Assembly (NCBI GenBank): GCA_947573485.1
Contig: CANPGB010000003.1
Span: 1 to 64,000, forward strand
Length of the DNA: 64,000 bases
Source: an uncultured Porphyromonadaceae bacterium
GTDB taxonomy: Bacteria; Bacteroidota; Bacteroidia; Bacteroidales; Muribaculaceae
Direction of reading: 5' to 3'
Shown here piece after piece: positions 854-10,872 of this stretch. Under the pieces are notes generated by a model that was given only the letters and a program-made list of their open reading frames with translations, was not told where the DNA came from and did not search any database. The translations under genes and the position numbers were made by a program. Positions within the stretch are counted from its first letter, which is position 1. Each line of letters starts with the position of its first letter.

Positions 854-3800
854 TTATTTCATGGAGGTCATTACGTCAATTAGGTCTTGGTAACAAGTAA
901 CCTTATGATATTTGACGTTATCGGTTGAGATTTCGTTGAACAACTGATTGCAGCAGTCAATCTTGGCATTTTCTATTGCGTTGAGCTGCATGGATTGGAG
1001 CGAACCTTTGGTCTCGGCAATGAAGAAAATGTGTTTGACGCTGCCCTTTTGCATCGCTATCGCCCAGTCGGGAGCGTAGCTGCCTACGGGCGTGGGGATT
1101 TGGAATGAGCGAGGCAGTTTCGCATATACCACCACTTCTTCTGCCTCGTCGAGGTCGTGGGCAAAGTCGCGCTCACCCTTGCTGTCGGAGACAACATAAT
1201 CAGTGATATGCTTCGATGTCTCGACTGCCTTGTCGAAGTCGGCACGGCTCGCGGCGGTGAATATGTCAGAGTTATATTTGCCGTCGGTCAGATGATAGTG
1301 GATGTGGTCAACTATCATCGTGGCTTTCTGCTCGCGGATAATCTGCACAACCTTACGAATAAATTCTTCGGGGTTGTTGCGGAACAGGGCGAGTTTCGCC
1401 GGGCGCAGTCCTTGAAGGATTTTTGCGGCTGTGCGACGAGTGATGTTTGCGCCTTTCGCAACCTGCCCGATAAGGTCATACTTGACTGATGAAGTTGAGA
1501 CATCGGTCAGTTCGTTAGAGGTGGACTTAGTGTTGCCAAACTCCGTAACCTCCTGCGCGTCCTGCTGCCCTTCAATCTTGATATAGCGCAGAGTGCGCAC
1601 CTGCAACTCGTCGGTGTTGAGATGCAGGACTGCGTTCTTGACAAGTTCGGCAGTGTCGTAACTTACCGTATAGACATATTGATGGTTGATGGCATTCCAG
1701 AGAGCCTGAAACTCGGGTTTGGCGAAATTGGCATTGAGTCTCGGCTCGGGCAATTTTGTCTTGCTACCATCGCCGGTCATTTCTTTCAACAGATTCGGGT
1801 CGAAAATAGAGTTGATAAGAAGTGTCACACCCTCAGCCATAGGTGCGAGTTGATTTCCGTAAGGAGCAACAGCCTCGGCTGCAACATCAGCATGATACTT
1901 CGGTGTTATGTTGCCTGCATCGTCGATGTACTCGTTATCTTCGAGCCAAACCATAATGCGACTTGTCTCGCGGTCGGTGACGACATGAGGCTGCCCATCG
2001 ACAGTAATTGTTTTGCCCTCGAAGTAACTTGGCGTGGCTTTAACTGCACGTTCACGTAGCGCATCGCGAGTTTCGCGTTGCAGCGCACCGGTGAAGTCAG
2101 AGTAACTTTCATTGGCAATGACAGTGAGTACATTGATATTGTGAACTTCGTCGCCAAGCAGTTCCTTATCCTGACGGACACCGTTGCGGTCAACGGCTAT
2201 GCGAAGACCGCGCCCCACTTCCTGACGCTTGGCAGTGGTGGAGTCACTATGCCTGAGAGTACAAATTTGGAATACATTTGGATTATCCCAACCCTCGCGT
2301 AGGGCAGAGTGAGAGAAGATGAAGCGTGTCGGTTCATCAAAACTTAGCAGTCGCTCTTTGTCGCGCAGGATAAGGTCATAGTCCGACGCTTCCTCACTGA
2401 CGTCACTGCCACGCTTGGTTTTGGTCTCAACCATCTTACCTTTCTTGTCGATTGAGAAGTAGCCGCGATGTGTCTGATATGGCGCGAAGCGGCGCAGATA
2501 TTCGTTGTAGTCTTCATCGAAGATGTGGAACTCTTCATTGACGAGACGGGCATATTCTTCCTCAAATATCTGTTGAAACACACCTTTTACAGGTTGATTG
2601 CCATCATCATACTGACGATATTTTGCCACTTCGTCAATGAAGAAAAGCGACAGGCACTTGATGCCGCGTTTGAACAACTGACGCTCCTTCTCGAAGTGAG
2701 CCTTTATCGTTTCGCGTATCTGAACGCGTTGCAGATGCAGCAGGTTTGAGTCGCCAACGACATCCCCTTTGCGGAGTGTCACTCCGTTGGTAAAAAAGAC
2801 GTAAGCCGTCGGTTGCGTAGCTGAGCCGGGGAATATCTCGGCAATGTCGAAACCTCGATATTGCTCCAACTCCTTTGACTCGACAAATAGAGAGTCTCCC
2901 ACACCGAGAGTCTTGAAATGGCGGCGAGGCTCACCGGACGCGTTTTTCACCTCGATAGAGATACGCGCCATAGGTGACTTATTGGGCGACAGGATTATAT
3001 TGTCGAGATACATATAGCCGTTGGTGCCGCGCAGGTTCTTCATCTCGAAGCCGATAACCTTGATGCGCTTTACAAGTCGCTCGCGGTAAGCGTCGAGGGC
3101 ATCGAGGGCATATACAGTGTCGTGCTTTGTACGGTGAGTCGCGGAGTAGTTCAACACGAACAGCGGGTTGAACTTCTTGAGAGCTGCTTGGGTAGCGGCA
3201 CCCTCCATCTTCTGCGGCTCGTCCATAATGATGATTGGGCGGTTGGCGGCAATCACGTCGATAGGACGGCGCGAGGCAAACTCATCGCGCTTGGAGTAGA
3301 TGATGCGGCTCTCCTTTGAGCGTCCACCCTCTTTGAGGGAAGCGGCAAAAGCCTGGGTGTTTATAATCATCACGTTCAGTCCGGCGTCCTGCGAGAACTG
3401 GTCGAGCTGATTGAGGTTAGAACTGTTATATACAAACCAACGCGCTTTCTTTCCGTACTGCTCCATGAAGTGTTCTTCAAGCATACGGAATGATTTGGCA
3501 ACGCCTTCACGGATAGCGATGCTTGGAACGACGATGATGAACTTTGACCAACCGTAGAGTTTGTTGAGTTCAAACATCGTCTTGATATAGACGTAGGTCT
3601 TACCTGTGCCGGTCTCCATTTCTACATCAAGATTTACTGCGCCAAGCCCATCAATCTTGCTGAGGGCCTTGGATAGCGGCACTCCGGCTGCCGTCTGAAC
3701 CGAGTGGAGATTTTCAAGCAACTGCTTGGAGGATAACTCCACATCGGCATTTCGGTAGCCGTCATCGTCACCATCGAAATGGATAACTCCCGAACCTCGC

Positions 3801-3916
3801 TTGCCGAGGTCGCGGCGATACTTCGAGGGGTCGCGGTTGGGCTGCCCGACAAAGATGTTGGTTATGTTTTCAACTGCCGTAGTCTGATAGCCTTGTATCT
3901 TAAACTTGAATTTCAT
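854..3916 (-). CDS. res: Type III restriction enzyme, Res subunit (helicase-nuclease)
   Basis: This is the restriction subunit of a type III system. With Mod it translocates on or scans DNA using ATP and cuts near unmethylated head-to-head sites. The 1020-residue chain shows an SF2 helicase Walker A motif (GTGKT, about residues 103-107), a DEAD-like DEPQ box (about 232-235), and a later FSHSALREGWDNPNV segment with an EVGRGLR motif VI. Near the C-terminus, PDWA (about 948) followed by FFIAETKG (about 965) fits the PD-(D/E)xK nuclease of EcoP15I-type Res. I chose the ATG at 3916 because it lies 4 bases after the mod stop and begins the usual MKFKFK-type N-terminus; a longer open frame to 4012 only overlaps mod. 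It is the last gene of the island operon and appears intact. Confidence 0.93.
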   Translation of the reverse strand: MKFKFKIQGYQTTAVENITNIFVGQPNRDPSKYRRDLGKRGSGVIHFDGDDDGYRNADVELSSKQLLENLHSVQTAAGVPLSKALSKIDGLGAVNLDVEMETGTGKTYVYIKTMFELNKLYGWSKFIIVVPSIAIREGVAKSFRMLEEHFMEQYGKKARWFVYNSSNLNQLDQFSQDAGLNVMIINTQAFAASLKEGGRSKESRIIYSKRDEFASRRPIDVIAANRPIIIMDEPQKMEGAATQAALKKFNPLFVLNYSATHRTKHDTVYALDALDAYRERLVKRIKVIGFEMKNLRGTNGYMYLDNIILSPNKSPMARISIEVKNASGEPRRHFKTLGVGDSLFVESKELEQYRGFDIAEIFPGSATQPTAYVFFTNGVTLRKGDVVGDSNLLHLQRVQIRETIKAHFEKERQLFKRGIKCLSLFFIDEVAKYRQYDDGNQPVKGVFQQIFEEEYARLVNEEFHIFDEDYNEYLRRFAPYQTHRGYFSIDKKGKMVETKTKRGSDVSEEASDYDLILRDKERLLSFDEPTRFIFSHSALREGWDNPNVFQICTLRHSDSTTAKRQEVGRGLRIAVDRNGVRQDKELLGDEVHNINVLTVIANESYSDFTGALQRETRDALRERAVKATPSYFEGKTITVDGQPHVVTDRETSRIMVWLEDNEYIDDAGNITPKYHADVAAEAVAPYGNQLAPMAEGVTLLINSIFDPNLLKEMTGDGSKTKLPEPRLNANFAKPEFQALWNAINHQYVYTVSYDTAELVKNAVLHLNTDELQVRTLRYIKIEGQQDAQEVTEFGNTKSTSNELTDVSTSSVKYDLIGQVAKGANITRRTAAKILQGLRPAKLALFRNNPEEFIRKVVQIIREQKATMIVDHIHYHLTDGKYNSDIFTAASRADFDKAVETSKHITDYVVSDSKGERDFAHDLDEAEEVVVYAKLPRSFQIPTPVGSYAPDWAIAMQKGSVKHIFFIAETKGSLQSMQLNAIENAKIDCCNQLFNEISTDNVKYHKVTCYQDLIDVMTSMK

Positions 3917-3920
3917 AGCA

Positions 3921-5936
3921 TTAGAGTATGCGACGGATGGTGTCGGGTGAATAATGCTTGAAGATTTGCTCGAAGTTGTCGAGGTCGTTGTCGTTTGCAG
4001 CCGAGGAGTCACGCATAACGAAGTATTGCGGGCGCATCTTGGCTATCTCGGTGACGGTGGATTCGTTGACTTCGGTATCGAAAGTAGCTATCAGGTAACC
4101 ATCATCCACAATAAACACACTTTTCCCAGCTAACTGCTCACTCCTAACTTGAGCTGAAAGCTCAATACCAAGTTCCGGCATTACTTGGAAAAGGAGGTCG
4201 AGCGGTGTGCGGTCGCTCTTCACGTTGTCAACGGTGTTGAACAAGTGAGCCTCATTGAAGTCTTCGGGAGTGTAGAACACATCCTCCATATTCGACGAGT
4301 CAAGTTTGAGCACACGGAAGCCGGTGTCAATTGAATGCGCACCTTGTGATTCCGTATTGCCTGTAGGGACATGCCTTTGGCATGTTGAATTTCCATCGTC
4401 AAACAAACCGGGGTCGCCGTTGCTACGTGCCAAAGGCACGTCCCTACGAATCTGCACCCCGGCACGGCGTATGCGTTCTTCACCGATTTGGCAGATGTTT
4501 TCGTATCCGGCTTTGCGAGCCTCGCTCTTTTCATCAGTCACTTCGGGAAGTTGAACCATGATGAATTTACGATGTCCGCCATCCTCTGCGTTGAGTTTCA
4601 TAACTGCGTGAGCAGTGGTGGCACTTCCGCTGAAGAAGTCGAGCACAATGTCATCTTCATCAATGTCAGCCATTCGCAAGAATAATTGTAATAGTTCTGG
4701 CGATTTTGCATAATCGAAAGGAGGAGTACCAAATAATTTCTTTAATGTATCGGTGCCATTGGAAATATCATCAACCCATGTTGTGAACTTCTTCGTATTT
4801 TCTTCACCAGGTAGCGGCTCAAAAATTTTCTCATAAGCAACCCATTCTCCCCACTTATTCTTCTGAAATTCAACACGTCCATCGGCGATAATTTTCCCAA
4901 GGGTGCTGGCGCCGTGGCGCCAGCGCCCTTGGATTTTAACAAATCCAAGGGCGCTATCCTTTGATTCTGAATAGATTAAAGGATATACTTCTGCTCCGTC
5001 AGGAGCAGTAATGGGATAATATAAATTAGGTCGATTTTCTCTAAGGCTATTTGAACCCCACTTACGAAGGAGTTGAGTCTTGTAGTTTCTTCCTTTTTCT
5101 TCGTCATATTTGGGGTAAACATCGCCTTCTTTGATTTCTTCTCCGGCTGAGAATTTTGATAGGTCTTTGGCGAAGCAAAGGATATATTCATGTAGGACGG
5201 CATAATATTTGCTATCTTGACGGCCACCACGACCTTTCCAATTTATAATTGAAACGAAGTTACGGGCACCGAAAATTTCACTGCAAACTTTCTTCACATT
5301 CTCTACCTCATTATCGTCAATGGATATGAAGATAACACCATCTTCTGTGAGCAGGTCGCGGGCGACTTTCAGACGTGGATATATCATATTGAGCCAGTCG
5401 GTGTGAAAGCGACCGTTGCTCTCGGTGTTGCGTTGCATTGGGTCGAGGACTTGGTTGCCGTCTTCATCAAACGCTCCACTCTGTCCATCCCACTCCTCAC
5501 TGCTCACTGCAAACTTATCACTATACACGAAGTCATTACCGGTGTTATACGGCGGGTCAATGTAGATCATCTTGACCTTGCCGAGATAATTCTCGCGGAG
5601 AACTTTCAGCACGTCGAGATTGTCGCCCTCAATGTAGAGATTTTTGGTGTTCCAAAAATCCACCGAGGCGTCCACGTCCGGGCGCAGAGTCTTGTCGGTC
5701 GGCGTGTTGGCAAGGCGTGAGGCAGCTCGCTTATCGGGCCACGTGAACTGATAACGCTCCTCGCCGGTGTCAAGAGCATCCGACGATAACTCAGCCCTCA
5801 ACTTGTCGAAGTCAATGGCAAGTTCCGGCTTACCATCTTTATTTAGTCGCTCAGTAACGCAATGAGGGAACAATGCAGCAATCTTCGCCACATTACCCTC
5901 CACCGCATCAAGGCTTTTCATTCTCAATTTTTCCAT
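3921..5936 (-). CDS. mod: Type III DNA methyltransferase, Mod subunit
   Basis: This is the modification and specificity subunit of the type III system, an adenine-N6 methyltransferase using SAM. The 671-residue protein carries the catalytic DPPY motif at about 127-130 and the SAM-binding FSGSATTAHA motif at about 430-440, in the beta-class order (catalytic motif first). The target-recognition region lies between them. The N-terminus MEKLRMKSLD resembles typical Mod starts, supporting 5936; the start overlaps the stop of the upstream membrane-protein gene by 29 bases. Two oddities lie inside the frame. Residues about 497-525 are encoded by an inserted REP-like palindrome pair (4363-4447) in the linker before the DTGFRVLKLD segment, and two adjacent strong palindromes (4905-4954) lie in the recognition region. 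Neither breaks the frame. Confidence 0.94.
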   Translation of the reverse strand: MEKLRMKSLDAVEGNVAKIAALFPHCVTERLNKDGKPELAIDFDKLRAELSSDALDTGEERYQFTWPDKRAASRLANTPTDKTLRPDVDASVDFWNTKNLYIEGDNLDVLKVLRENYLGKVKMIYIDPPYNTGNDFVYSDKFAVSSEEWDGQSGAFDEDGNQVLDPMQRNTESNGRFHTDWLNMIYPRLKVARDLLTEDGVIFISIDDNEVENVKKVCSEIFGARNFVSIINWKGRGGRQDSKYYAVLHEYILCFAKDLSKFSAGEEIKEGDVYPKYDEEKGRNYKTQLLRKWGSNSLRENRPNLYYPITAPDGAEVYPLIYSESKDSALGFVKIQGRWRHGASTLGKIIADGRVEFQKNKWGEWVAYEKIFEPLPGEENTKKFTTWVDDISNGTDTLKKLFGTPPFDYAKSPELLQLFLRMADIDEDDIVLDFFSGSATTAHAVMKLNAEDGGHRKFIMVQLPEVTDEKSEARKAGYENICQIGEERIRRAGVQIRRDVPLARSNGDPGLFDDGNSTCQRHVPTGNTESQGAHSIDTGFRVLKLDSSNMEDVFYTPEDFNEAHLFNTVDNVKSDRTPLDLLFQVMPELGIELSAQVRSEQLAGKSVFIVDDGYLIATFDTEVNESTVTEIAKMRPQYFVMRDSSAANDNDLDNFEQIFKHYSPDTIRRIL
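4363..4447. repeat. REP/REPIN-like inverted pair inside mod
   Basis: Both outer ends read GTAGGGAC or GTAGGGAC-complement. The left unit is GTAG followed by the hairpin GGACATGCCTTTGGCATGTT, and the right unit is the inverse with GTGCC/GGCAC arms. The 85-bp arrangement of two head-to-head hairpins with a GTAG lead tetranucleotide is the architecture of a REPIN. It is translated in frame as part of Mod. Confidence 0.7.
4905..4954. repeat. Two nested perfect hairpins within mod
   Basis: A 20-base palindrome GCTGGCGCC-GT-GGCGCCAGC (4905-4924) overlaps a second hairpin with a 14-bp perfect stem and 4-base loop (4923-4954). The encoded stretch is about residues 328-344 of Mod, beside an RWR motif that is normally conserved. 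These are very strong stems for coding sequence. Confidence 0.6.
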
Positions 5937-6543
5937 TTATGTATTTGTTTATATTTTTCAATAATGGTAAAATGGCTTCCTTACACTTTTTTTGCTCTTT
6001 TTGTATTTGGATAAGTGTATAAGAAATCTTATCAGTAGAGTCCTTGTATAAAAGTGCTTCTGAATTAAACTGTTCCAAAAAGAATTCGACTGACGTGTCG
6101 AACCATCCGTTATATTGAACGCTAATTCTAAAAGGGGTGTATTTATTTTGCTCGTACCATTCATTACACATTTTATCGAACTTCGATAAAGGTTCTTTCG
6201 TTTTGGGACACTGCATTAAGTAATAATACTTCTTAGTCCCAGGGGTAAAATAGAATTTTCTATTTTGGATGTTAAACAGTATTTGCTTAATGCGTCCTCC
6301 TTGTTCGTCAGTATCAACTGGCAGGGAGGCAATATAATCTTTATCAATTGATATTTTGACATCCTTTGCAACAGATTTACCCACATTCTCAAAAGTAATA
6401 AAATACACTCTATCGTATGGTTCAATACTAATGATAATCCGGGCACGTCTATCATACCACAAATAAAAGCCTGTTATTAAGGCTGATATTGCGGTTATAA
6501 GAGTTGCAATATTGATGACATTTGATATTTCACATAAAATCAT
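5908..6543 (-). CDS. Membrane-anchored protein of the restriction island (unknown)
   Basis: This 211-residue protein is not assigned to a family. Residues about 10-28 form one hydrophobic helix (INIATLITAISALITGFYLW) followed by a positively charged WYDRRAR, so the bulk is probably cytoplasmic. Residues 35-60 (ISIEPYDRVYFITFENVGKSVAKDV) look like a beta-sandwich of the kind seen in many small membrane-anchored proteins with an ENxG core. The C-terminal third is helical and lysine-rich. Its ATG overlaps the upstream DUF4391 stop by 4 bases (ATGA) and its end overlaps mod by 29 bases, so it is translated as part of the operon. It may tether or sense for the restriction complex, but that is inference. 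Confidence 0.75.
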   Translation of the reverse strand: MILCEISNVINIATLITAISALITGFYLWYDRRARIIISIEPYDRVYFITFENVGKSVAKDVKISIDKDYIASLPVDTDEQGGRIKQILFNIQNRKFYFTPGTKKYYYLMQCPKTKEPLSKFDKMCNEWYEQNKYTPFRISVQYNGWFDTSVEFFLEQFNSEALLYKDSTDKISYTLIQIQKEQKKCKEAILPLLKNINKYINGKIENEKP

Positions 6544-7223
6544 AGGAGAGATTTCAGCTTTTGGAGTTCAACGAATAATTCACGCTTGCGGCGCGGCTGT
6601 TTGGTGGCGTTCATCTGACGCTCCAACGCCGCGATTTGGCGTTCAAGTTTGGCGCGCTCTTCGCCCACGCGTATTTCATCTCGTAGGGACATGCCTTTGG
6701 CATGTTGAATATCATGTTGAATATCACCGTTGCCATCGGCAACATCGCAAAGCGATGTCCCTACAATTATCCTGACAAAACCCTCCCACACCATATCAAG
6801 ATTGATTCCGCAGACTTGTAGGGACATGCCTTCGGCATGTTGCCAGGGCGTAATGTACAGTTTTAAATAGTGTACGGCGAGCATAGTTTCGTCTTCATAG
6901 CGCAGAAGATAGACAACGCGCTGAGGAATCGCCTTGGCAAGCAACTCAATACTTTTGACATCGAAACAGCGTCGTTTCAACTGCACTTCGACCACGAATA
7001 TTTCTTTAACCTCGTTACCGACGGCGATAGCCGGAACGGTGCGAGGTGAAATCCAATTAACGAAGTCAAGACGCGAAACCTCGGCATCGAAACGTTCTCG
7101 TTGCGACGGTGTCCAGTCGAACCGCTTAAAAAGCTGCGCCTTGGGCAGTGGGCGCTTTACCCGAGTAGCCTCGGGTAAACCTAAGTTAGCAGTTAGTAGT
7201 GAGGAGTTATTCATTGCGCACAT
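6540..7223 (-). CDS. DUF4391 protein with in-frame REP inserts
   Basis: The N-terminal part (NLGLPEATRVKRPLPK) and the following alpha/beta core match my recollection of DUF4391 proteins, which commonly sit with helicases and methyltransferases in defence loci; their biochemical role is not known. The C-terminus (about residues 181-227) is a coiled coil (RAKLERQIAALERQM). Between core and coiled coil, residues about 128-135 and 154-180 contain QHAEGMSLQ, GTSLCD and QHAKGMSLR, which are exact translations of REP-like palindromes at 6818-6842 and 6683-6764. The inserts flank a natural-looking segment (LDMVWEGFVRIIV) and keep the frame. The stop overlaps the next gene by 4 bases, and the 5' end overlaps the upstream small gene by 17 bases. 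MNNSSLL (three codons in) is an alternative start. Confidence 0.8.
   Translation of the reverse strand: MCAMNNSSLLTANLGLPEATRVKRPLPKAQLFKRFDWTPSQRERFDAEVSRLDFVNWISPRTVPAIAVGNEVKEIFVVEVQLKRRCFDVKSIELLAKAIPQRVVYLLRYEDETMLAVHYLKLYITPWQHAEGMSLQVCGINLDMVWEGFVRIIVGTSLCDVADGNGDIQHDIQHAKGMSLRDEIRVGEERAKLERQIAALERQMNATKQPRRKRELFVELQKLKSLL
6683..6764. repeat. REPIN-like inverted pair inside the DUF4391 gene
   Basis: It begins GTAGGGACATGCCTTTGGCATGTT and ends with the inverted unit ATGTCCCTAC. A second imperfect hairpin CGTTGCC-ATC-GGCAACA lies between. The total is 82 bp, the same design as the copy in mod. Confidence 0.7.
6818..6842. repeat. Single REP-like unit inside the DUF4391 gene
   Basis: GTAG plus the hairpin GGACATGCC-TTC-GGCATGTTG. 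It differs from the other copies by one base in the loop, and it lies 54 bp from the paired copy. Confidence 0.65.
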
Positions 7224-7566
7224 TTTTAGCTGTAGTTTTTGTAATTGAAGTTAAAAGTCGCATTAATTCCTCACAATCTCCATTGATTGAAAAATACTGT
7301 TCATCAGAAAGATATTCAGATTTGAAAAGTAATTCCAACCAATAGAGAGTTTCACCACACTCCTTATATGAAATGTGAGTTTTTAAAAGAAATTCCTTTT
7401 TGCTTATTGAGTATTGAGCCTCCGTTAAGTTTGCTCCAATACTCGTTCCGCTTCTCAGAATTTGTTTAGACAAAACAAATTCTTTCTTTTCTTCGGTTAG
7501 GTATTTATATAACCGAATTACCCTCAGCGCGAATGCTTTGCTCTTATCCAATGCAACACTACTCAC
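7207..7566 (-). CDS. Four-helix-bundle protein (23S rRNA intervening-sequence / S23 family)
   Basis: The 119-residue chain has the features of the S23/IVS four-helix-bundle family: a KSKAFALRVIRLYKYL first helix, the hallmark LSKQILRSGTSIGANLTEA, a KKEFLLKTHISYKECGETLYWLELL helix, and an LMRLLTSI last helix. These proteins form basic pentameric barrels that are thought to bind nucleic acid; a relative (Avd) helps diversity-generating retroelements. Free-standing copies are common in Bacteroidetes. This one is embedded in a restriction operon, 3 bases after the helicase stop and overlapping DUF4391 by 17 bases, so it is probably co-translated. Whether it is a functional partner or a passenger cannot be told from sequence. 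Confidence 0.85.
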   Translation of the reverse strand: MSSVALDKSKAFALRVIRLYKYLTEEKKEFVLSKQILRSGTSIGANLTEAQYSISKKEFLLKTHISYKECGETLYWLELLFKSEYLSDEQYFSINGDCEELMRLLTSITKTTAKNVRNE

Positions 7567-7569
7567 TGC

Positions 7570-10500
7570 TCACTCCTCCTTTCTCACTATTAAAAAACAT
7601 ATTAACTCAAAATCATCGAGACCGCGGACTTCGTTGCCGAAAAGCGAACCGCTGTCGCCATCGAGGAACGAGAAAAGGTCGGTGGTCTCCTTGACTTTTA
7701 TTAGTGATGAGATGGCGTCGCCGAGGAGCTGGGAATATGTGCCCATACGTTGACCGTCGCGTGTCTCAGCGTTGAACTTATGGCAAAGGTCGAGCAGCGG
7801 TGTTGCATTGCCACGGCACAAATGGCGGATAGTGTCAAGCAGAGATTTCGGGTCGAGGTGGTCAATGTGAATGAAGGTTTCAGGCTTGAGGTTTGAGGTT
7901 TTAGAATCAGCCCTAACACCTGACCCCTGAGCCCTGACACCTACATAGACCATATAGAATGGATGAAGCCTGTTCTTACGGTCGATATTGATTGAGTTAT
8001 TGCGATTTTTGAGAACAAATATTACGCCGGGAGGCGTGTCTTTATCGGCAGGTACGATGGCATGGAGCCCCATTGGGGTATGCTCTATATCATTGTCTTG
8101 CTTGATGTATTCAAGCAGGTCAAGGCGAAATTCATTCAAGCCCAAGTCCATTATCGAGACACCGGTGTTCATCTCCTCAATATCCACGACTTCCTCTTTG
8201 AGGCGTTCCAACTGGTCTCGACGATATTTAAGGTCGCCTTGCTCTGCATCGGTGAGCGGATTATCATCGCCGGTGGCAGTAAGTACCGACACTTTCATGC
8301 GGGCTTCAACACGTCCTTTGAGGTCGATGTATTCATCCAAGTCCATGTCCGGCCAGTAATTCACAAGTTGGATTACGGCGTTGCGCGAGCCGATGCGGTC
8401 AATACGCCCGAAGCGTTGGATTATGCGGACCGGATTCCAATGAATATCGTAGTTAATGAGGAAGTCGCAGTCTTGGAGGTTCTGACCCTCCGAGATGCAG
8501 TCAGTGGCGATAAGTACATCTATTTCCTCATTGAGTTTGGGATAGAGGGCAGCCTTTTCTTTCGATATAGGCGAAAAAAGAGTGAGGACTTTATTGAAGT
8601 CCATTTTCTCACGTGTCTTAATTGTGCAACGCGCTTCGACATCACCGGAGATAAGGGCTGCGTTAAGCCCGGTGCGTTCCTTTATGAGAGGTGCAATATT
8701 CTCATAGAGATATTGAGCCGTGTCGGAAAATGCTGTGAAGATTATGATTTTCTTGTTGCCGGGATTGATAGGGTTGGCGAACTTCGAGCGAATATCCTCT
8801 ATGAGCAACTGAAGTTTACTGTCATGCGCAGGTGTAATGTCTTCAAGCATGAATAGCAGTGTGCGGAGATTATCAAGGTCTTTAGCGAGATATTCGCGCC
8901 ACTGCACATAGTCCATGTCGGCAAGGTCAATCTTTGTTTTCTTACCGCCGATAAAGACCGAGTCTTCACGTTCGTCGAAGTCAAGATTGGAGTCAAAGTC
9001 ATAATCATTGACCGTTGAGTGACCACCATTAGCGGCGAGCCTATCTATAGCGTCAACAGTTGTCTGAATGAAATCCTTAATGCGTGTAAGCGTCAACCGG
9101 AACGAGTTGACAGAACTTTCCAAGCGTTTGAGCAGGTTGATACTCATAAGTTGACGTATGCCTCGCTCGCGACCGGAGCGGGAGAGATTTCCAAGCGAGC
9201 CGTCAGCCTTTGTATCGAGATATTTTTCAAGTTTGCTCGGCAAAATAAAGTCGGAGGGTGTGTAGATGGCGAGATTGAGCTCGGTTACGCTGACAAAGAT
9301 ATCGTTGAACGATACGGCTGTCGGCAAGTCTGTGAGTTTGGGCGAGCGAGAGATTGGCTTCAATCGTTCCGGGAACTTGCCGATGTCGGTCGTGTCGTAA
9401 TATTGTTCGATGTGTTTGCGGCTTCGGGCTATGGTAACGCTATCGAGCACTTCAAAGAAGTCAAAGCTCAGGAGCGAGAGCAGATTTTTTGTGGTACGTT
9501 CATCCGGAGGCATTTTTGACCAACGATTGAAAGCCGACTGTGCGTCACGAAATATTTTGTCAATGGATGATGTGGTGTTGAGCAGCGCATCCATTCGCTC
9601 CGAGTCGCCCTCGTATGCAAGTTGCAACTGATTACGAAGGTCGTTAAATCGGTTATTGACAGGCGTGGCAGACAACATCAGGACCTTCGTCTTGACACCT
9701 GTGCGGATAACCTTGTTCATCAGTTGGAGATAGCGGTTCTCGCGCGGGTTCTCGTCGTTCTCGTCGGTGGTGACTTTACCACCATTACGAAAGTTGTGGC
9801 TTTCGTCGATAACGACAAGATCGTAGTTGCCCCAGTTGATATGTTCGAGGTCAAGACCGTTGCTTTGCCCGGACTGACGCGAAAGGTCAGTATGATAGAG
9901 AATATCATAGCGCAGGCGGTCAGCGACAAGCGGATTGTTGACGTAGTTGCTGCGGTAAGTCACCCAGTTTTGATGCAATTTCTTCGGGCAAAGAACGAGA
10001 ACTGACTTGTTGCGGTTCTCGTAATACTTGATTACGGAAAGCGCGGTGAATGTCTTACCGAGACCCACGGAGTCGGCAAGGATGCAGCCGTTATACTTTT
10101 CAAGTTTGTTGATGATAGCGAGAGCCGCGTCACGCTGGAAGTTGTAGAGCTTGCTCCAGATTACACTTGATTTGAAGCCGGTGGCTTCGTTAGGCAATAC
10201 ATCCTCCGAAATATCTTCAAGAAACTCGTTGAAGATATTGTAGAGCGTAACGAAGTAGATAAATTCCGGCGCGTTTTCCTTGTAGGCGTTGGTGATGTTG
10301 TCGAGCACCTGTTCTGTGACGACTTGCAGTTTTTCGCCATCGTGCCACACTTGATTGAAAAGATTCAGGTAGAACTGCGACATCGGAGCATCTGTACGTT
10401 GAACGAACTGATAGGCATTATTACCTCGCTCACAACCGAGGTCAACAGTTGTAAATCCTGTGATGGGCATATAATTGACATCATCTACGTTGATGAAGCC

Positions 10501-10872
10501 CATCATATTTTCATTGGTGCGGTTTGACTTGAAACAAGCCTTTTGCCTAATCCATTCGGCACACTCCTTTGCGACGGCTTTAAGCGACAACTCATTGCGG
10601 AGTTTTATCTCAAACTCCGAACCGAATAGGTCGCGCTCACGGTTAAGACGCGGTATGTAAAATTCTCGCCGCTGCTTGTCGGCTTTCTCGGTGGTAAACG
10701 AGGGAGAAGTAAAGATAAAACGCAACTCATCTATATCTTTCAACTGCTCTTTGAGTTCTTGAAAGGCATAAATCGAAAAACTTGCGGCCGCTATCGACAC
10801 ACGACTGCCGGATTTGATGGTAGCCACCAAGTCATCGCGTAAGGTTTGATTTATGTTGTCAATGAGTTGCAC
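7570..10872 (-). CDS. PLD-like / SNF2-family helicase of the defence operon
   Basis: This 1100-residue protein has an N-terminal phospholipase-D-like region (about 1-150, with SFSIYAFQELKEQL and FIFTSPSF) and then an SNF2/SF2 motor. The motor has Walker A DSVGLGKT at about 266-273, Walker B DESHNF at about 352, motif III LSATPVNN, motif V EGQNLQDCDFLINYD, and motif VI QRFGRIDRIGS at about 825. I see no HKD nuclease pair, so nuclease activity is uncertain. It is the first gene of the operon and is read from a GTG start at 10872. An in-frame TGA lies three codons upstream, so no longer start is possible. Helicases of this type accompany DUF4391 and type III-like methyltransferases, which suggests one combined defence machine. 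Confidence 0.88.
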   Translation of the reverse strand: MQLIDNINQTLRDDLVATIKSGSRVSIAAASFSIYAFQELKEQLKDIDELRFIFTSPSFTTEKADKQRREFYIPRLNRERDLFGSEFEIKLRNELSLKAVAKECAEWIRQKACFKSNRTNENMMGFINVDDVNYMPITGFTTVDLGCERGNNAYQFVQRTDAPMSQFYLNLFNQVWHDGEKLQVVTEQVLDNITNAYKENAPEFIYFVTLYNIFNEFLEDISEDVLPNEATGFKSSVIWSKLYNFQRDAALAIINKLEKYNGCILADSVGLGKTFTALSVIKYYENRNKSVLVLCPKKLHQNWVTYRSNYVNNPLVADRLRYDILYHTDLSRQSGQSNGLDLEHINWGNYDLVVIDESHNFRNGGKVTTDENDENPRENRYLQLMNKVIRTGVKTKVLMLSATPVNNRFNDLRNQLQLAYEGDSERMDALLNTTSSIDKIFRDAQSAFNRWSKMPPDERTTKNLLSLLSFDFFEVLDSVTIARSRKHIEQYYDTTDIGKFPERLKPISRSPKLTDLPTAVSFNDIFVSVTELNLAIYTPSDFILPSKLEKYLDTKADGSLGNLSRSGRERGIRQLMSINLLKRLESSVNSFRLTLTRIKDFIQTTVDAIDRLAANGGHSTVNDYDFDSNLDFDEREDSVFIGGKKTKIDLADMDYVQWREYLAKDLDNLRTLLFMLEDITPAHDSKLQLLIEDIRSKFANPINPGNKKIIIFTAFSDTAQYLYENIAPLIKERTGLNAALISGDVEARCTIKTREKMDFNKVLTLFSPISKEKAALYPKLNEEIDVLIATDCISEGQNLQDCDFLINYDIHWNPVRIIQRFGRIDRIGSRNAVIQLVNYWPDMDLDEYIDLKGRVEARMKVSVLTATGDDNPLTDAEQGDLKYRRDQLERLKEEVVDIEEMNTGVSIMDLGLNEFRLDLLEYIKQDNDIEHTPMGLHAIVPADKDTPPGVIFVLKNRNNSINIDRKNRLHPFYMVYVGVRAQGSGVRADSKTSNLKPETFIHIDHLDPKSLLDTIRHLCRGNATPLLDLCHKFNAETRDGQRMGTYSQLLGDAISSLIKVKETTDLFSFLDGDSGSLFGNEVRGLDDFELICFLIVRKEE

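Follow-up and report, generated by a model that had tools for sequence, protein, structure and literature searches.

Why do five short hairpins lie in frame within two genes of one restriction–modification (R-M) operon, and how did they get there? The operon is part of the window, by which we mean the whole 64-kb stretch analysed here (positions 1 to 64,000 of contig CANPGB010000003.1, assembly GCA_947573485.1, from an uncultured Muribaculaceae bacterium). An earlier note, made from the letters alone, had proposed that palindromes inside mod, the methyltransferase gene of the operon, and inside a DUF4391 gene are repetitive extragenic palindromic (REP) elements moved by REP-associated tyrosine transposases (RAYTs). 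On balance we think it somewhat probable that they are GTAG REPs of the RAYT-mobilised type, that these spread locally within type III R-M operons of Muribaculaceae, and that the RAYT was later lost in the window.

A dispersed family of GTAG hairpins

The window contains five GTAGGGAC-tagged hairpins, two in mod and three in the DUF4391 gene, and the three loci and two inverted pairs that the earlier note had described were confirmed: a pair of 85 bp in mod, a pair of 82 bp in the DUF4391 gene and one single hairpin, also in the DUF4391 gene. All five lie in frame, as it had also claimed. The hairpins and the segments associated with them are as follows.

4363..4385, plus strand: REP hairpin with ATGCC stem; encodes TCQRHVPT on the minus strand, in Mod linker 1
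4386..4424, minus strand: segment between the mod hairpins; encodes SNGDPGLFDDGNS, native-like
4425..4447, minus strand: REP hairpin with GTGCC stem; encodes RRDVPLAR, in Mod linker 1
6683..6705, plus strand: REP hairpin with ATGCC stem; encodes QHAKGMSLR, at site 2 of the DUF4391 protein
6701..6724, minus strand: 12-bp tandem duplication within the DUF4391 REP pair (DIQHDIQH)
6742..6764, minus strand: REP hairpin with ATCGC stem; encodes VGTSLCDV, at site 2 of the DUF4391 protein
6818..6840, plus strand: single REP hairpin; encodes QHAEGMSLQ, at site 1 of the DUF4391 protein

The stem ATGCC/GGCAT is not shared by all of these hairpins; one has GTGCC/GGCAC and one ATCGC/GCGAT. Exact matches to GTAGGGAC in the 64-kb window are exactly these five hairpins. 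The bare 8-mer with one mismatch is not enriched in the window (13 occurrences against 32.6 expected), and therefore the evidence lies in tag and hairpin together. Folded as single strands, the two pairs reached z-scores of -6.5 and -4.1 and two single hairpins -4.9 and -4.3, with none of 200 shuffles as stable for any of the four stretches. In single class-A hairpins GTAGGG is left unpaired, with two G between tag and stem. No Rfam family matched across positions 3500-7600 of the window.

A genome-wide copy count, set beforehand as a test, showed that the motif is not unique to this locus. The window's genome (2.88 Mb, 49 contigs) holds 27 GTAGGGAC sites, of which 18 have a fully paired five-base stem at a fixed distance, a low number for a REP family; a few of the sites are hairpins of other families. 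The sites were listed regardless of stem, and four stem types were found (ATGCC/GGCAT, GTGCC/GGCAC, ATCGC/GCGAT and ATGGC/GCCAT), so that four different sequences pair at one distance and compensatory change is indicated. A strict hairpin pattern matched 14 times in this genome, against no match for a reversed-pattern control. Five inverted pairs have exact GTAGGGAC ends, to which the mod pair is added, and the same hairpins also occur in intergenic DNA. Beyond this genome, a pattern scan of named genomes found family hairpins in at least 117 stretches; the 80 titles among the matches listed belong mostly to Muribaculaceae/Porphyromonadaceae metagenome-assembled genomes, Xylanibacter muris, Alistipes and Bacteroides, with one labelled Clostridium. 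In the named loci listed, 206 of 234 GTAGGGAC sites have all five pairs, a proportion inflated by the pattern used to choose the loci. Together with the GT(A/G)G tag that stands at the foot of each short palindrome in the window, these sequence comparisons support the classification of the hairpins as GTAG REP-type elements of a dispersed family.

The inverted pairs had been taken for REPINs (REP doublets forming hairpins). The inverted arrangement stands, but the middle of the mod pair, GDPGLFDDG, resembles the EGLFA/DLFSG linker of four REP-free Mods from other families of the same order (L271, L273, L284 and L285), and by this resemblance the mod pair encloses native-like sequence and not a REPIN spacer.

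As a separate observation, the REP pairs at three loci of the same genome (L008, L010 and L012, on contigs C8, C21 and C24) sit within a longer element. L010 and L012 have the terminal inverted repeats GAGGGTGTTGCAGAAC, like those of miniature inverted-repeat transposable elements, and L008 has one such end in the part examined.

Coding copies and their RAYT neighbours

Elements of this family avoid coding sequence in the named genomes. In the survey of these, hairpins within 120 bp were merged into elements, and the loci were drawn from among the matches listed, mostly in Bacteroidales genomes. Only 2 of 137 elements passed a two-sided coding score, compared with 61.6% of 1370 random positions (p=3e-49), and 24 of 137 lay in some open frame of at least 120 aa, compared with 78.7% of random positions. 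A stricter first coding label placed 1 of 123 non-edge elements in frame (55.7% for random positions), the other 14 of the 137 being too near an end. The two passing elements are in an orthologue of the window's helicase (L140), which carries a further in-frame REP at its C-terminus, and in a RAYT gene (L092); the element of L122 also lies in a RAYT, recognisable though below the coding score. All the other open-frame elements were judged by eye to be spurious frames or RAYT leaders.

The R-M operon is where this rule breaks down. In the window's own genome, which provides the fairer test, all five REPs of the operon are in frame, against none of 13 elsewhere in a credible gene (p=1e-4). Over G000 (the window's genome), G007, G163, G140 and part of G148 (10 of its 38 GTAGGGAC sites listed), 17 of 23 REPs at R-M loci are in frame, 15 in R-M genes and two in RAYTs, and none of the 33 REPs examined outside R-M loci is in a credible gene; these counts are descriptive, as the genomes were chosen for REPs at the locus. 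Thirteen of the 33 lie in some open frame of at least 80 aa, none scoring above 0.05 on both sides, and the REPs of L304, L315 and L318, at codons 10-27 of long frames, read as lying upstream of the true start. In the genomes sampled, nearly all credible coding copies are found in operons of this type or in RAYT genes, and coding REPs are not a general feature there.

The R-M survey comprised 41 stretches, the window and 40 others; taking the two contig ends of G006 as a single locus brings the number to 40. GTAGGGAC REPs are in frame in R-M proteins at six loci, including the window.

Window: Mod linker 1 and two sites of the DUF4391 protein
G140: Mod linker 1
G006: Mod linker 1
G163: Mod linker 1 and Res
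G007: Mod linkers 1 and 2, the mod gene holding three REPs
G148: Mod linker 2 and Res

In G102, the nearest relative (N-terminus 93% identical), Mod linker 1 instead carries a palindrome with GTAGGGGC at both feet. REP-free orthologues encode other residues at the same linkers, and with this comparison the possibility, raised in the earlier note, that the peptides are native to these proteins fails.

A RAYT gene lies immediately beside mod in G140, G099, G148, G006 and G163; in G099 the contig stops within mod, short of linker 1. RAYT adjoins mod in four of the six REP-bearing operons compared with one of 34 others (p=0.0008). The value becomes 0.0018 when L201, with its GTAGGGGC palindrome, is taken as REP-bearing, 0.0002 without L222 and the outlier L238, and 0.017 with the G006 ends kept apart. 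These RAYTs are of two types, A (G163 and G148, 55% identical) and B (G140, G006 and G099, 55-57%); identity is 54-57% within types overall and 29-34% between them. Four mod-side RAYTs scored 19.9-26.4 bits against Y1_Tnp (PF01797), three of them below the cut-off of 23; PF01797 alone was therefore rejected as a RAYT test, and an actual A-type RAYT was used as query. Two mod-side RAYTs match NCBIfam REP_Tyr_transpos below its cut-off, and the RAYT of L237, with the motifs NHIH, WQ and YISNNV, scored 47 bits where the cut-off is 80.

In three loci, hairpins of R-M genes are identical to hairpins at the adjoining RAYT. Both Mod hairpins of G163 equal the two RAYT-side hairpins in all 23 letters, and one of them has a TCT loop, which occurs with this stem once among 220 hairpins; the hairpin in Res has another loop. 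In G148, the hairpins of Mod and Res are identical to two beside its RAYT, and in G140 one of the two Mod hairpins is identical to a hairpin in its RAYT, with six of seven such copies in that genome within 6.2 kb at the R-M operon. RAYT genes themselves carry REPs: in 13 of 30 related RAYT loci found by similarity search, a REP lies past the HUH motif, in frame with the RAYT (some of these genes have a stop codon elsewhere), and further in-frame REPs were seen in the RAYT genes of L092, L122, L200, L222 and L230. At L240 (G137), a RAYT adjoins what seems to be left of a Mod C-terminus (17 bits), with a REP peptide fused to it.

The operon and its variable linkers

The operon occupies the minus strand of the window, with its genes in the following order.

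854..4012, minus strand: res, type III restriction subunit, without a GTAGGGAC hairpin in the window
3921..5936, minus strand: mod, type III DNA methyltransferase, 671 aa
5908..6543, minus strand: open reading frame of 211 aa, no Pfam family
6540..7223, minus strand: DUF4391 gene, 227 aa
7207..7566, minus strand: gene for a 23S rRNA intervening-sequence (four-helix) protein, an operon passenger
7570..10872, minus strand: SNF2/HKD helicase, same operon

The Mod and Res subunits are adjacent, as type III R-M requires, and scored 684 bits (MTase_III) and 946 bits (REase_III) in PADLOC. Alignment of Mod to the solved Mod 6k0w stops at residue 495, the start of the first hairpin peptide, and the hairpin site therefore lies after the methyltransferase domain. 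The res orthologues of two relatives bear REPs at DLG^FDGDDD. In the genome behind L140, mod is not orthologous (best identity 35%).

The idea that the REPs are inserts which add protein holds for the pairs. Among proteins matched by motif search, Mod linker 1 has 33-43 residues with a pair against a median of 14 without (n=28, one outlier of 66), and site 2 of the DUF4391 protein has 35 against 19 (n=13, one of 30). Single hairpins encode 8-9 residues and add 0 to 4, where pairs add 16-29: Res has 14 and 15 residues with a hairpin against 14 (n=16), Mod linker 2 has 30 and 31 against 27 (n=27, six of 24), and site 1 of the DUF4391 protein has 11 against 11 (n=16, range 11-21). The hairpin at 6818 thus adds no length relative to the commonest orthologue length, that of nine of the 16 REP-free orthologues. 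The double-foot palindrome of L201 gives a Mod linker 1 of 17 residues. Either the hairpins took the place of native codons, or their arrival was followed by deletion and by selection on length.

Other features of the operon are variable or palindromic. A heptamer repeat, (CTMACTN)n, occurs in the window at 4130-4145 (mod), 7188-7203 (DUF4391) and 7562-7577 (start of the 23S intervening-sequence protein gene). It has 57 rows in the window's genome; among the 30 examined, the copies in mod (4130) and the DUF4391 gene (7188) lie in credible frames, and none of the 27 rows examined outside the operon, at 13 places, is in an open frame of at least 100 aa. A second class of long coding palindrome is found at the R-x-W motif of Mod (window 4897-4955, L199, L200, L210, L217, L219, L227, L230, L231 and L232). 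In the tandem palindromes of eight relatives, 96.9% of cells are paired and five pairs have changed on both sides, a level reached by 0 or 1 of 500 shuffles with relatedness left in, and covariation extends even to the encoded residues (R..R, K..F, A..A). A different R-x-W palindrome, with a compensatory change, is common to the window and L199. The target-recognition part of Mod is swapped as a module: DNA identity between the mod genes of the window and L201 is 82-94% up to about residue 175, 37-49% over residues of about 225-450 and 63-96% beyond, and the distant Mod of L227 has the L230-type module. Near the C-terminal part of the helicase, VGVRAQGSGVRADSKTSNLKPETF is missing from the L140 orthologue and different in L201, another variable insert site.

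Origin of the coding hairpins and known systems

In the reading that we favour, a RAYT resembling group 4 (subclass 2.4) would settle in or beside mod or res genes, single-stranded REP copies would be cut and rejoined nearby, probably by that same RAYT, and in-frame landings in flexible linkers of Mod, Res, the DUF4391 protein or the helicase would survive, the encoded peptides being presumably neutral. Because the operon would move between genomes, the hairpins would go along and could outlive the RAYT. The window would be a RAYT-less stage: its hairpins look like relics, and a RAYT may once have accompanied its operon. An Escherichia coli RAYT is described as cutting and rejoining single-strand REPs and as requiring GTAG (PMC8266576). 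We also entertain a bolder version, which we consider improbable as a whole, in which type III R-M operons of gut Bacteroidales are a RAYT-REP vehicle, a RAYT resident in the operon overwrites linker codons of the R-M proteins with its own hairpin through length-conserving strand replacement, an encounter of the operon with another RAYT leads to hairpins at these linkers being rewritten to the new type, and a transposase thereby keeps editing defence proteins.

Several observations weigh against local RAYT spread. The A-type RAYT has no match in the window's genome or in G007, a search that did not cover the B-type separately; the window's genome has four other Y1-like proteins. The earlier note was right about the REP family; the RAYT gene for which it proposed to look did not turn up as an A type. 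What is weakened by this is no more than the claim that a living system is present here, because genomes with REPs and without a transposase gene have been reported (PMC3733652, PMC6006769). In G006 the mod hairpin (GCGAT stem, GTAGGGAC) is unlike the hairpins of the RAYT beside it (GCAAT stem, GTAGGGGC), and L236 of the same genome, with 36 residues in Mod linker 1 and one recognisable hairpin, is an exception to the small gain in length from single hairpins. The hairpin identity in G148 is weak evidence because the shared hairpins are common types. Neither REP nor adjacent RAYT is present at 33 of 40 type III loci, REP-bearing Mods are scattered among REP-free ones (starred sets of the N-terminal tree), and numbers are small throughout. 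The C-terminal Mod tree is weakly resolved (stars on 4 of its 35 inner branches), and the group counts are comparisons among labelled rows.

It is possible, if doubtful, that the operon is just a permissive target: REPs would land everywhere, coding insertions would be tolerated only in this fast-changing operon and purged elsewhere, and the RAYT would be a separate passenger. The heptamer, unrelated to RAYTs and in frame only in this operon among the 30 of 57 rows examined, also counts against local RAYT spread, as target tolerance may suffice; LLTPN-type repeats, moreover, occupy the site of the window's single REP in 5 of 15 DUF4391 orthologue loci. What counts against a permissive target is that REP presence goes with RAYT adjacency, that R-M hairpins match RAYT-side hairpins in three loci and that nearly all copies in G140 are local. 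Permissive target and local RAYT spread may both be true. We regard as unlikely a single ancient REP pair in Mod linker 1 that was inherited and exchanged along with the gene, with later conversion of the hairpins to match the resident RAYT. In its favour, the window and L237 have similar sequence between the two hairpins, and the pair has the same length of 85 bp in the window, G007 and G163; but GLF-like segments occur in REP-free Mods too, the other sites (Mod linker 2, Res, DUF4391, helicase) need separate insertions, and the scatter of REP-bearing Mods in the N-terminal tree speaks against inheritance, though recombination could cause it. Strong single-strand folding, and a further palindrome class in mod that covaries, could suggest that the hairpins are kept for a function in DNA or RNA, such as tuning R-M operon expression; most orthologous operons are without hairpins and positions vary between genomes, which makes this very unlikely. 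That the peptides are native and their codons palindromic by chance is barely credible: site 1 of the DUF4391 protein is equally long with and without its hairpin, but orthologues encode other residues, and the dispersed copies, intergenic ones of the same genome included, contradict chance.

The locus provides a countable case of mobile hairpins altering proteins, in which the same linker, compared over several genomes, may hold a hairpin, none or another kind, and in which a candidate enzyme is encoded next door. Local RAYT action, REP stems that track their RAYT inside coding DNA, and the carriage of RAYT-REP systems between gut bacteria by R-M operons are all made testable.

We dropped the likeness to Rickettsia palindromic elements that the earlier note had drawn. 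These too are palindromic repeats in frame in protein genes, but their tag is CGTC and they have no dedicated transposase (PMC3733652), whereas the tag here is GTAG and relatives have RAYT neighbours. REPINs (Bertels and Rainey 2011, PMC3116915) share the two inverted REPs, here 78-85 bp, but have a conserved spacer where the middle of the mod pair is native-like coding sequence. The GTAG REPs of Di Nocera 2013 (PMC3733652) have the same tag, short palindromes, inverted dimers and intragenic copies, some of them in frame and placed by that paper, as a likely location, in protein linkers or loops. Those copies lie in unrelated genes, many of replication and repair, and the repeats were recorded from Proteobacteria, Cyanobacteria, Chloroflexi and the PVC group, whereas the credible coding copies described here lie in genes of type III R-M operons and in RAYT genes, in Bacteroidales; the word "restriction" is absent from that text. 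Subclass 2.4 TnpAREP, or RAYT group 4 (PMC6006769), has Bacteroidetes among its hosts, the motif set NHxH, WQ and YIxNNP, of which the L237 RAYT shows NHxH and WQ but reads YISNNV at the third, in-frame REPs within the tnpAREP gene between HUH and Tyr, and REPs that have a foot on either end, like the palindrome of L201. Three G-C pairs form the base of the stem in its canonical REP, where GTAGGG of the class-A hairpin is unpaired when alone, and the part of that source available makes no mention of R-M operons. A search of listings and abstract openings, which took in few subscription papers and did not extend to the supplement of PMC3733652 that lists intragenic REPs, brought up no publication joining RAYTs or REPs with type III R-M genes. 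REPs in frame have been published before, including those in group-4 RAYT genes; the new part is the repeated colonisation of type III R-M operons.

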